Source of the DNA: an uncultured Draconibacterium sp.
Lineage (GTDB): Bacteria; Bacteroidota; Bacteroidia; Bacteroidales; Prolixibacteraceae
Direction: 5' to 3'
Assembly (NCBI RefSeq): GCF_963675585.1
Contig: NZ_OY776411.1
Coordinates: forward strand, 67,001-131,000
DNA length: 64,000 nucleotides
Translations under genes and position numbers: made by a program
Shown here: piece after piece, positions 35,965-56,397 of the stretch
Numbering within the stretch: position 1 is the stretch's first letter
How the letters are laid out: each line of letters begins with the position of its first letter
The notes under the pieces: model-generated
What the model saw: the letters and a program-made list of their open reading frames with translations, nothing else
What the model was told of the DNA's origin: nothing
Databases searched by the model: none

Positions 35965-38900
35965 TTATTTCATTGAAGCAATACGTTCTTCCAAAACTTT
36001 AATTTTGGATTCGGCATCGGCTTGTTTTTCTTTTTCTTTGGCAACCACAGCTTCAGGAGCATTGTTTACAAAACGTTCGTTGCCCAGTTTTTTCATTACC
36101 GAAGTAAGAAATCCTTTGGTGTATTTCAACTCTTCTTCCAGCTTTTTCAACTCTTCTTCCACATCGATAAATCCTTCAAGCGGAATGTAAAAGTTTGAAG
36201 ATTTTACCCGGAACGAAGCGGCGCCTTTTACTTCCTCATCAACCAAAGTCAATTCCGAAAGATTACCGAGTTTGATAAGAATGCTGTTGAAAGTTTCATC
36301 AAAACCTTTGTCGCCTTTTTGAGCCGAAAGTTCGATGGTATCTTTGAACGCTATGTTTTTATCTTTTCTGATTTTTCGAATTCCCGAAACGGCTTCTTTC
36401 ACATCTTCGAAAGTTGCCAGAAGTTCTTTATCGTATTCTCCTGCTTTTGGCAGCTGACTGATCATTATACTTTCGCCTTCACTGCGTTCTTCCAGCAACT
36501 GCCAGATTTCTTCGGTGATAAACGGCATAAACGGATGCATTAAACGCAATACCTGGTCAAACAAATCAAGGACCTCCGCATAGGTTTTTGCATCAATTGG
36601 TTTTTGGTAAGGTGGTTTTACCATTTCGAGTAACCATCCCGAAAACTCGTCGCGAACCGTGGTATAAACGGTCATTAATGCTTCCGAAATACGGAAACTG
36701 TCGAACTGAGCATTTAAAGTTTCAACCACCTCGCCCAATTTGTTTTTAAACCATTCGATGGCCAGTTTAGCGTGTTCCGGTTGTTCAACATCGTTGGCTA
36801 CTTCCCAGTTTTTCACCAGTCGGAAAGCATTCCATATTTTTGTTGTAAAACCGGCTCCCTGCTGTGTTAATCCTTCGTCGAACAACAAATCGCCACCGGC
36901 AGGCGAACAAAGTAACATTCCTACTCGAACACCATCGGCTCCGTATTTTGCAATCAGGTCGAGCGGATCGGGAGAGTTACCCAGCGACTTCGACATTTTG
37001 CGGCGTTGTGCATCGCGCACCATTCCTGTAAAATATACATTTTTGAACGGGAATTCGTCGCGGTATTCGTAACCGGCAATAATCATTCGGGCTACCCAGA
37101 AAAAGATAATATCAGGGGCAGTTACCAAATCAGATGAAGGATAATAATATTGTATCTCCTCGTTTTCAGGATTATTTACGCCATCGAAAACCGAAATGGG
37201 CCACAACCAACTCGAGAACCAGGTATCCAAAGCATCTTCGTCTTGTTTTAAATCGGCAGCGGTTAATTCGGCATTGCCGGATTTTTCTTTTGCCATTGCC
37301 AAAGCCTCTTCAGCAGTTTCGGCACACACAAAAGTACCGTCAGCCAAATAATACACCGGAATTTGATGGCCCCACCACAACTGACGGCTAATGCACCAGT
37401 CTTTAATGTTGCCCATCCAGTGTTTGTATGTATTTTTAAATTTTGGAGGGTGGAACTGAATGTTATCATTCATTACATTCTCCAGTGCAGGTTTTACCAG
37501 CTCTTCCATTTTCAGGAACCACTGCGCCGAAAGTTTAGGTTCGATCACCACATCAGTCCTTTCAGAGAAACCTACTTTGTTGGTATAATCCTCAACTTTA
37601 GCCAGATTACCGGCTTTTTCAAGCTCCGGTACAATTTTCTTCCGCACTTCGAAACGGTCTTCACCGATATACATTTCGGCTTTTTCGCTCAAAGTTCCGT
37701 TATCGTTAAAAATATCGATCGACGGAAGATTGTGTTTCATGCCAATTTCGTAGTCGTTAATATCGTGAGCAGGTGTTATTTTCAAACAACCTGTACCAAA
37801 TTCCATGTCAACGTATTCATCTTCAATAATCGGAATGGAACGATTTAAAAGCGGCACCAAAACACGTTTTCCTTTTAAATGGGTAAAACGTTCGTCGGCC
37901 GGATTTACACAAACGGCAGTATCGCCCAATATCGTTTCCGGACGCGTAGTTGCAATGGTTACGTATGAAGCCCCCTCCTGCTCCCCCGAGGGGGGAGAGT
38001 TAAGAACGTCCTGAATAGATTTCAGAACAGTATCAATACTTCCCAGTACTTCTTCATTCGTAAAACGAATAATTTTGTAACCTAGTTCATTAAGAATGTC
38101 AGTTTTAAGTTTATCCAATTCCTGAATTTCAGGTTTATTATGATACCCTCCATCAACCTCAATTACAAGCTTTTTTTCAAGGCACACAAAATCAACAATA
38201 ATATCGTTTATAATGTGTTGTCTTCTGAATTTTTCGCCCAATTGATTCGCTCTCACCATTTCCCACAATACACTTTCAGCTTCTGTAGAAAAACGACGTA
38301 GTTCTTTTGCATTCTTTTTTAATAACTCATATTCCGATTTACGAGCAGTCTGGTATTGGGGCTTCTTTTCCTCCCCCTTGGGGGAGTCAGAGGGGGCTTC
38401 CTCTACAATTTTATATTTCAGGTAGTAAAGTTTGCCCTGCATTTCTTTGTAAATCACCTCTTCGTCGGAAAGGGCAGTTTTTGCAGCCGGATCCCAGTTT
38501 ACCATACGCACACCACGGTACACCAAACCTTTGTTAAACAAGTCTACAAAAACTTTAATTACCGATTCGCTGCGGATTTCGTCCATGGTAAATGCGGTAC
38601 GGTCCCAGTCGCACGAAGCACCCAGTTTTTTCAATTGCTCCAGAATAATTCCACCGTGTTTGTGTGTCCACTCCCAGGCGTGCTCCAAAAATTCGGGACG
38701 CGAAAGGTCGTATTTGTCAATTCCTTCAGCATTCAATTTATTTACCACTTTTGCTTCGGTGGCAATTGATGCGTGGTCGGTTCCCGGCACCCAGCAGGCA
38801 TTTTTACCGGTCATTCGCGCACGACGAACCAGAATGTCCTGAATAGTATTGTTAAGCATGTGCCCCATGTGCAACACACCGGTTACGTTTGGTGGCGGAA

Positions 38901-39027: not shown

Positions 39028-39056
39028 ATTGAAAAAACTACCTAAAATTTGAGGTG

Positions 39057-39064
39057 CAAAAGTA
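39057..39064 (-). promoter_or_regulatory. valS promoter -7 element
   Basis: TACTTTTG on the minus strand fits TAnnTTTG. A TCTG, one base off TTTG, sits 19 bp upstream inside the 36-bp repeat, so that repeat supplies the -33 element. Confidence 0.65.
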
Positions 39065-39069
39065 ATATT

Positions 39070-39105
39070 AAAAGTTTAAAGTTCAGAGTTTAGAGTCCAG
39101 AGTTT
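39070..39105 (-). repeat. 36-bp promoter repeat, valS copy
   Basis: On the minus strand it differs at one base from 48202-48237 upstream of serS. It consists of short ACTCTGAACTCTAAACTCTG-like subrepeats and ends in AAACTTTT, five bp before the -7 element at both genes. Confidence 0.85.
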
Positions 39106-46267: not shown

Positions 46268-46587
46268 GTGTTTCTCCCCAATTTGTTTAAAGTCGACGAG
46301 TAGTAAAAAATTAATCTCGTTGTTGTGCAACGAAAAATAATTACAGACAAACAGATTGCTTCACTGCGTTGCCAATGACAGATTTTTCTTCCAGCCCCTG
46401 ATCCGTCAGCTGACGGTCAGGGAGACGTTCCTAACTTAACAAACAGTGCTTCTAAAACGTCATGCTGAACTTGTTTCAGCATCTCTGTTATTTCCTCATT
46501 ATCCCAGTAAAATTGGGTGAGCACTCGGGAGAAGCAATCTTAAAGATTAACTGGAAACTAAAGTTGTCTAACTTAAAAACAAATAGT
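46268..46587. other. 320-bp intergenic region with palindromic repeats
   Basis: Contains CCGTCAGCTGACGG (46401-46414), a self-complementary core, and the dispersed hairpin at 46458-46484. An ATG at 46462 opens a longer frame into the next gene but lies in the repeat and is not the likely start. Confidence 0.6.
46458..46484. repeat. Dispersed palindromic repeat, copy 1
   Basis: CGTCATGCTGAAC-ttgttt-CAGCATCT folds as GATGCTGAAAC/GTTCAGCATG. Copies at 50721-50746 and 56344-56370 and a degraded one near 50417. Confidence 0.7.
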
Positions 46588-48201: not shown

Positions 48202-48237
48202 AAACTCTGAACTCTAAACTCTGAACTTTAAACTTTT
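48202..48237 (+). repeat. 36-bp promoter repeat, serS copy
   Basis: Differs at one base from the valS copy (39070-39105, opposite strand). The TCTG of the last subrepeat lies 19 bp before the -7 element. Confidence 0.85.
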
Positions 48238-48242
48238 CCTTG

Positions 48243-48250
48243 TACATTTG
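48243..48250 (+). promoter_or_regulatory. serS promoter -7 element
   Basis: TACATTTG fits TAnnTTTG; ATG follows 24 nt later. The -33 element is TCTG inside the 36-bp repeat, with 19-bp spacing. Confidence 0.7.
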
Positions 48251-48273
48251 CGCTGCATTTTAAAACAGAGAAC

Positions 48274-50667: not shown

Positions 50668-50720
50668 GGCTTGCAGTCTACAAGGTCACCCTGAACTCGT
50701 TTCAGGGTCTTCTTTCAACA

Positions 50721-50746
50721 GATACTGAAACAAGTTCAGCATGACG
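50721..50746. repeat. Dispersed palindromic repeat, copy 2
   Basis: GATACTGAAACAAGTTCAGC followed by ATGACG; family of 46458 and 56344. An inverted partner CCCTGAACTCGTTTCAGGG precedes it (50688-50706). Confidence 0.7.
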
Positions 50747-50772
50747 TTCAAACAAACTGAAGATTCAATTTT

Positions 50773-56343: not shown

Positions 56344-56370
56344 AGATGCTGAATCAAGTTCAGCATGACG
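56344..56370. repeat. Dispersed palindromic repeat, copy 3
   Basis: AGATGCTGAA-tcaag-TTCAGCATGACG, 28 bp before the prfB -7 element. Family of 46458 and 50721. Confidence 0.7.
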
Positions 56371-56397
56371 TTTCAACAATTCTCCAAATAATCTTGC

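Follow-up and report, generated by a model that had tools for sequence, protein, structure and literature searches.

The valS gene of the window, by which we mean the whole stretch of 64,000 nucleotides analysed, raises the question of why an essential synthetase should carry a nuclease in its middle. A preliminary description of this DNA had proposed a DUF559 nuclease block inserted in frame in the 1020-codon gene, and the open reading frame, the Pfam matches and an alignment with an empty allele bear this out (Table 1). The PF04480 (DUF559) match has an E value of 1.3e-32 and a score of 112.3 bits (cut-off 20.6), covers profile positions 3-108 of 109 and is flanked on both sides by tRNA-synthetase segments. 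Within the block, Pfam reports this domain, a weak match to the MTES_1575 nuclease and nothing else. As argued below, the block is probably a selfish mobile cassette, wherein a DUF559 endonuclease lies between inverted REP-like palindromes, and which behaves as a homing element that is read through instead of being spliced out.

Table 1. Features of the cassette-bearing valS gene, in window positions
Feature	Position	Strand	Basis or content
valS, valyl-tRNA synthetase gene bearing the cassette, 1020 codons	35965..39027	-	ORF and Pfam
Inserted block, residues 208-355	37963..38406	-	alignment with relative G035, which lacks the block
Left (5' in gene) terminal repeat	38373..38400	-	linker APSDSPKGE
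Left-end inner palindrome CTCCCCC-TT-GGGGGAG	38371-38386	-	within the left terminal repeat region
DUF559 nuclease domain, residues 236-342	38002..38322	-	Pfam; conserved E251, D279, E290, D292, H296, D305
Right (3' in gene) terminal repeat	37967..37994	-	translated as a 10-residue linker
Right-end inner palindrome	about 37981-37997	-	within the right terminal repeat region

The block had been placed at residues of about 210-354. That it is a single block is correct, and alignment with the empty allele of relative G035, which reads KI-EGEDEF-VTIATT, now gives residues 208-355, which take the place of six residues in that allele. The insertion site adjoins the strongly conserved TTRPET motif. 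The terminal inverted repeats are likewise real and do contain inner palindromes (each of the C5/G5 type), but their arms are 28 nucleotides long, not 31 and 30 base pairs as first reported, and are 86% complementary. The outermost GAA/TTC had also been counted as part of the element. It proved not to be fixed, since the GAA on the left can belong to the host as one of its codons and the right end elsewhere reads GGGGGCTGAA and similar. Alignment with relatives lacking the block, to which the preliminary description had looked for an exact empty site and any target duplication, defines the former; no duplication is recognizable by eye when occupied and empty valS DNA are compared. No common target motif was found among insertion sites.

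A composite pattern of the ends has exactly two matches in the 6.03-Mb genome, each of them at the valS cassette, and a looser pattern allowing three mismatches gives 19 matches versus 17 for a reversed control, which leaves no extra end copies in this genome. The possibility that a second intact valS leaves this copy a pseudogene had also been raised. The genome (G000) has a single valS match at E 1e-100 or better, so the window copy presumably works, and its frame is open throughout. Other repeats are present in the window as well. Three copies of a dispersed repeat, AGATGCTGAAACAAGTTCAGCATGACGTT, lie at 46455-46484, 50720-50755 and 56344-56379, and an 88% inverted pair of 50 nucleotides (39056-39105 and 48202-48251) is built around AAACTCTGAACTCTAAAC.

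Three familiar types of insertion were considered and rejected. The seven Pfam families matched by the 1020-residue protein at E 0.001 do not include the Hint domain of an intein. A group I or group II intron is not indicated, as there are no Rfam matches up to an E value of 1 in 37900-38470 and the host frame is open through the cassette in 17 aligned valS alleles (that of G037 is frame-broken). An out-of-frame nuclease like that of the ShiLan domain does not apply, because DUF559 is in the host frame. Thus, the initial judgement that the block is neither an intein nor an ordinary fusion holds, and its second half is further backed by the patchy occupancy of one site, the end-only remnants and the similar cassettes in unrelated genes that are described below.

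Of 140 genomes from the bacterium's family, 131 gave a ValS match. The alleles aligned, 54 in all, comprise the window gene, 16 block-bearing loci and the 37 that could be extracted from 39 loci of ordinary frame length. There are 17 full alleles including that of the window, 32 clean empty alleles reading YKIEGEDEFVTIATT and variants, three with both ends and no nuclease (G049, G071 and G034) and two with one end (G047 and G055). An insertion shared by all close relatives, with no other copies of the ends in any genome, would have pointed to an old fixed domain, as had been recognized at the outset; the nearest relative, G035, with 94% identity in ValS across the 666 residues used as query, is clean empty. 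On a ValS tree built with the block excluded (52 rows, two short ones having been dropped), occupied and empty states require 10 changes, nine of which are forced by starred branches. Four of the five end-only alleles are sister to full ones (G049/G056, G055/G053, G071/G016 and G034/G121), as decay would predict. There is no clear signal of a co-conversion tract in valS, wherein identity near the site is 79-80% among occupied and 76-77% among empty alleles and the rest of the gene is also only slightly higher. The cassette-bearing valS of one single-contig genome (L114; G037 C1:1158300-1161900) shifts frame three times, twice near the poly-C cassette ends, and either long-read indels or a decaying gene would produce this pattern indistinguishably.

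Comparison of cassettes with their hosts indicates that the cassettes are mobile. In the valS genes of G021 and G022 the flanks are 88-96% identical in DNA and the DUF559 domains only 61%, a gap which shows that one cassette replaced another. When 57 DUF559 domains are placed in a tree, 35 group as a single clade, to which valS contributes 18, ileS 15, a type ISP gene one and a free gene one, and the valS copies split into two lineages of 15 and three members. According to AU tests, the DUF559 alignment rejects the ValS tree (p 2e-35 for DNA, 6e-75 for protein) and the ValS alignment rejects the DUF559 tree (p 2e-7 and 2e-6), a conflict driven largely by the second lineage with its three members. 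Among 10 hand-picked pairs, dS is lower in the cassette than in the host (residues 360-1000) in six, such as 0.58 versus 2.51 for G121/G132, and higher in four, with several values near saturation.

Other host genes show this independence to differing degrees. On a 155-row DUF559 tree, which has few columns and wherein taxonomy is a confounder, cassettes cluster by host gene with 42 changes compared with a shuffled mean of 112, and none of 200 shuffles is as low. The recG cassettes account for one change in 24 rows, and DUF559 rejects the RecG tree only at p 0.015; these cassettes mostly follow the RecG tree, so that descent and loss dominate there. The leuS cassettes are scattered (six changes in eight rows for site 1, three in four rows for site 2), as are those of type ISP genes (three changes in three rows). 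The ileS site lies between HYPF and FPADFIAEG, and its 35 rows are divided into 15 full, three end-only and 17 empty alleles, where 20 of about 115 non-full loci were taken and some of these were picked for slightly long frames. The window genome's own ileS is empty. In the ileS genes of G032, G034 and G033 (L046, L049 and L050), the cassette's right end is present as two tandem copies, which still encode a linker (SLPLGEGQGGA, SLPLGGRVGDGA or similar). A search of 50,697 phage records returned two matches with 34-35% identity, and a phage vector is therefore not indicated.

The nuclease itself is well conserved. Residues E251, W255, D279, E290, D292 and D305 are present in all 96 aligned DUF559 domains and H296 in 94 of them, so the four residues singled out in the preliminary description (D279, E290, D292 and H296) are indeed kept. 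Values of dN/dS between 0.05 and 0.18 within valS cassettes (10 pairs) indicate strong purifying selection on these sequences. Seven of the 17 valS cassettes, including that of the window, lack an in-frame ATG, GTG or TTG before the catalytic core, and in these the nuclease is very unlikely to be produced other than within the synthetase. In the remaining 10, one or more such codons, mostly TTG, are present. The longest opening in another frame ranges from 53 to 91 codons over the 17 alleles. AlphaFold gave poor models of both fused enzymes examined, with a mean pLDDT of 54.0 for ValRS (17 rows) and 58.5 for RecG (16 rows). Among solved structures, profile comparison places 3hrl ('Endonuclease-Like Protein', E 9e-28) and 3r3p ('Mobile intron protein', E 1.5e-6) closest to the domain, and we take 3r3p to be I-Bth0305I. 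Sections of one published account describe I-Bth0305I as an EDxHD homing endonuclease (PMC3943268).

Similar arrangements occur well beyond valS. PF04480 is found in at least 98 of 140 genomes of the family and in at least 222 of 395 genomes sampled across the phylum. The loci taken were the 39 family matches listed in frames longer than 300 amino acids besides the window's own, 40 of the 49 phylum matches listed in such frames, and 80 named loci that are the best 80 of 294 relatives in a genome-contig scan; with the first 30 family loci added and duplicates removed, this gives 156 distinct DUF559 loci. The share of these in frames of 300 amino acids or more (138 of 156) is not a rate, because long frames or similarity guided the choice of loci. 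Representatives were assigned to hosts with Pfam and NCBIfam, and the rest by BLAST against those. The 22 named host families are led by ileS (27 loci), valS (24), recG (24), leuS (12, at two sites) and metH (8), followed by pglX-like genes and hsdR (5 each), SpoIID/LytB and type ISP genes (4 each), hsdM and a legC-type aminotransferase (3 each), and purL, icmF, recB-like genes, cca (at two places) and hisD (2 each). Single loci are found in purQ, hemF, hutG, hisF, trpF, a CcrM-like methylase and one unnamed host. Of the remainder, 17 are free genes and three are without a host call.

Several internal sites adjoin conserved motifs, which are TTRPET in valS, a like motif in leuS, ATVKGDVHDIGKN in metH, MTATPIPRT in recG and WHTQGSGKS in hsdR, and DUF559 is terminal in hisD, trpF, hutG, purQ, hisF and hemF. 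Carriers include the named isolates Tangfeifania diversioriginum DSM 27063 (valS), Maribellus maritimus (ileS), Tenacibaculum discolor (recG), Bacteroides sp. 214 (SpoIID-like) and Paludibacter sp. 221 (purL), and many other loci come from metagenome assemblies. Occupancy of recG is patchy too in the family of G242, where 149 genomes were searched and four of the 144 with a match have a frame of 848-862 amino acids, the others being mostly about 700-740; among the four long frames, DUF559 was seen only in that of G242 itself. The proposal of a mobile nuclease cassette is thus supported, and its scope grows from one oddity to the whole phylum. We lean slightly towards a phylum-wide class of splice-less homing elements, wherein an essential host enzyme (ValRS, IleRS, LeuRS, RecG, MetH and others) would double as the homing endonuclease and the REP-like palindromes would serve both as DNA ends and as protein linkers.

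Palindromic borders are a general feature of these loci. A GC-rich hairpin, defined as an arm of at least five with five or more GC and a loop of up to eight, located within about 110 nucleotides of the domain, occurs on each side in 92 of the 137 in-frame DUF559 loci that could be tested (those with room on both sides), compared with 30 of 2677 pseudo-blocks (1.1%) of equal size placed elsewhere in the same frames. The left border has a hairpin in 108 loci, the right in 107, either in 123 and neither in 14, and either border has one in 289 of the pseudo-blocks (10.8%). Border hairpins thus occur far beyond chance. The palindromes vary by lineage (CTCCCCC..GGGGGAG, CCCTCTCCC..GGGAGAGGG and ACCCCCCAGCCCCCTAAAGGGGGGG), and differing palindromes are translated to similar linkers such as SPLPLGEG, APSDSPEGE and PPKGG. 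At internal sites the cassette ends are open in frame, though the loci had been picked for long frames, and in hosts with a C-terminal cassette such as hisD the right hairpin lies beyond the stop codon. The ends may have been selected to be read as linkers, as was originally suggested.

The preliminary description had called for a search for the ends in the genome and in relatives. The valS-type end consensus, GCCCCCTCYRACTCCCCC-GAA-GGGGGAG, is dispersed in 46 of 140 family genomes (four matches in all for the reversed control), but no further copy is present in the window genome. Of 31 dispersed copies examined (30 loci), 21 lie outside any open frame longer than 300 codons. A GTAG tag was not seen by eye in this consensus. 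An in-frame valS or ileS cassette is present in 24 of the 46 genomes with the repeat and in six of the 94 without it, an association which is partly circular because the cassette's own ends can match the pattern. The surroundings of free DUF559 genes, 16 of which were taken, are enriched for GC hairpins, with 17 in the 9.6 kb within 300 bp and seven in the 34.7 kb further out.

Several further repeats were observed. The second DUF559 of the window genome is a free gene of 121 amino acids (L002/L074; G000 C1:857400-859300), and the repeats around it are spaced about 200-290 bp apart with a palindrome that differs from the valS ends; their exact core, GCCCACTCCTCCTTNNAGGAGGAG, has five copies in the genome, all at this array. 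In G034 (C47:166397-170507) the valS-type REP forms tandem arrays with a spacing of about 65 bp. The valS genes of G021 and G022 (L066 and L055) contain an extra single REP of about 54 bp, in frame elsewhere in the gene and without a nuclease. Weak matches to Y1_Tnp, the REP/IS200 transposase, occur in frames of 881-1237 amino acids (G070 C1:1849675, G053 C114:7379 and G537 C103:14389), and these are possibly another in-frame mobile domain or chance.

The course of events that we favour is as follows. A DUF559 cassette, whose nuclease is Vsr-like and of EDxHD type, is inserted in frame at the fixed valS site by TTRPET. It would not be spliced out, and instead would be translated as an additional synthetase domain with its palindromic ends read as Pro/Ser/Gly/Glu linkers, so that the gene stays functional. 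The fused protein would have to be made and to cut DNA. The nuclease within ValRS would cleave cassette-free valS alleles, whose repair from the occupied allele would then copy the cassette in. Such homing would account for the repeated use of one site, the uneven occupancy and the exchange of cassettes. On rare occasions a cassette may be copied ectopically into another gene and start a new lineage, as in ileS, leuS, recG, metH and others, and loss of the nuclease would leave the end-only remnants.

The single site used by each main lineage, the conservation of the motif targeted, patchiness, conflict with the host tree, replacement of cassettes, a kept active site and kinship to a homing endonuclease, taken together, are features that homing predicts. 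In valS, occupancy of the site is patchy and disagrees with the tree of the host gene, a pattern that is much weaker in recG. Simple homing is disfavoured by the lack of a clear co-conversion tract, the recG cassettes that follow their host tree, the scatter of leuS and type ISP cassettes, and the loci without hairpins.

The main rival explanation is transposition linked to the repeats. Perhaps DUF559 mobilizes Bacteroidota REP-like palindromes, as RAYT does for GTAG REPs, such that a REP-gene-REP unit hops, or else Y1 tyrosine transposases move the palindromes in trans. The location of free DUF559 genes among REP-like hairpins fits this model as well, and the second DUF559 of the window genome lies within an array of its own palindromic repeat. 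Likewise, valS-type ends are dispersed among family genomes, largely outside long frames, lone in-frame ends without a nuclease exist, leuS cassettes are scattered over the DUF559 tree, and Y1_Tnp was found in 20 of 21 genomes searched. However, cassettes overall cluster by host gene, the same site is repeatedly occupied in valS and in ileS, and no target duplication is seen. Moreover, further copies of the valS cassette ends are absent from the window genome, which points to homing from allele to allele rather than to transposition within this genome. We therefore regard this model as rather unlikely for the cassette, although it may account for moves into new genes.

A still less probable explanation is that DUF559 was fused long ago for a host function, such as regulation, nucleic-acid binding or defence, and has frequently been lost. 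The coexistence of clean empty and occupied sites, the exchange of cassettes at one site, end-only remnants, and palindromic ends around unrelated host domains in so many named families are difficult to reconcile with an accessory domain of this type, even though strong purifying selection, the recG cassettes that mostly track their host tree, and the presence of DUF559 in restriction-modification genes, which might profit from a nuclease, are what it would lead one to expect. An assembly artefact or a valS pseudogene can practically be dismissed, for although many relatives are metagenome assemblies and the valS frame of G037 is broken, twice at poly-C ends, the named isolates that carry cassettes refute this reading for the class, and the window valS is the sole copy found and is open throughout.

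If the read-through homing element is real, it would explain the oversized synthetases and other enzymes of many Bacteroidota, and would provide a natural catalogue of sites where essential enzymes tolerate insertion as well as a route by which proteins gain domains. The functions of DUF559, which is an unnamed family, and of the Bacteroidota REP-like palindromes would become directly testable.

The closest precedent found is the ShiLan domain of phage DNA methylases, an insertion that is thought, in the parts of the report drawn on here, to be unspliced and homing (Arsenault, Gosselin and Gogarten 2025, PMC11855218). According to the same parts, it too is open in the host frame, occupies a conserved site, bears an endonuclease, lacks intein and intron parts and is patchy in occurrence (PMC11855218). 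It differs in that its endonuclease is of the HNH type, is out of frame and resides in a phage methylase (PMC11855218), whereas the valS cassette encodes DUF559 in the host frame. The elements described here also have palindromic ends and reside, across a phylum, in bacterial genes that in many cases have housekeeping functions. The string 'palindrom' is absent from the main text of the ShiLan paper (PMC11855218).

The EDxHD homing endonucleases exemplified by I-Bth0305I resemble the cassette in nuclease profile and, as sections of the relevant paper indicate, in patchy insertion at conserved sites (PMC3943268). Those enzymes, as presented there, reside in group I introns or phage and have extra DNA-binding parts (PMC3943268), whereas the valS cassette has no intron match and about 110 nuclease residues. 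The REPtrons formed by REPs and RAYT, together with REPINs, share the palindrome-flanked gene and the dispersed single and paired copies, so far as portions of one paper describe them (PMC3733652; see also PMC3116915). RAYT is described there as an HUH tyrosine transposase (PMC3733652), and the cassette has no HUH or Y1 domain. Flanking palindromes that are also dispersed, a trait of REPtrons, are found here among relatives and not in the window's own genome. Rickettsia palindromic elements, which are not known to carry a gene, are comparable as in-frame palindromes, and in the present case such palindromes bracket a nuclease domain. Passages of one article report that the Rickettsia elements lie in frame within genes likely to encode functional proteins (PMC3733652).

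In the open-access literature searched, no listed title or abstract start besides that of ShiLan concerned such nuclease insertions in housekeeping genes, nor did any among the open-access papers naming DUF559. In fungal mitochondrial rps3, a homing endonuclease gene is fused in frame to an essential gene; these insertions involve other nuclease families, are organellar and are not known to have palindromic linkers. Inteins and introns last in essential genes by removing themselves. By comparison, nothing seems to remove the cassette, and its palindromic ends are open in the needed frame and would form flexible linkers. It thus appears to use a third way, remaining in the protein as a tolerated domain, which, if true, would add a mode of life to those of selfish DNA.
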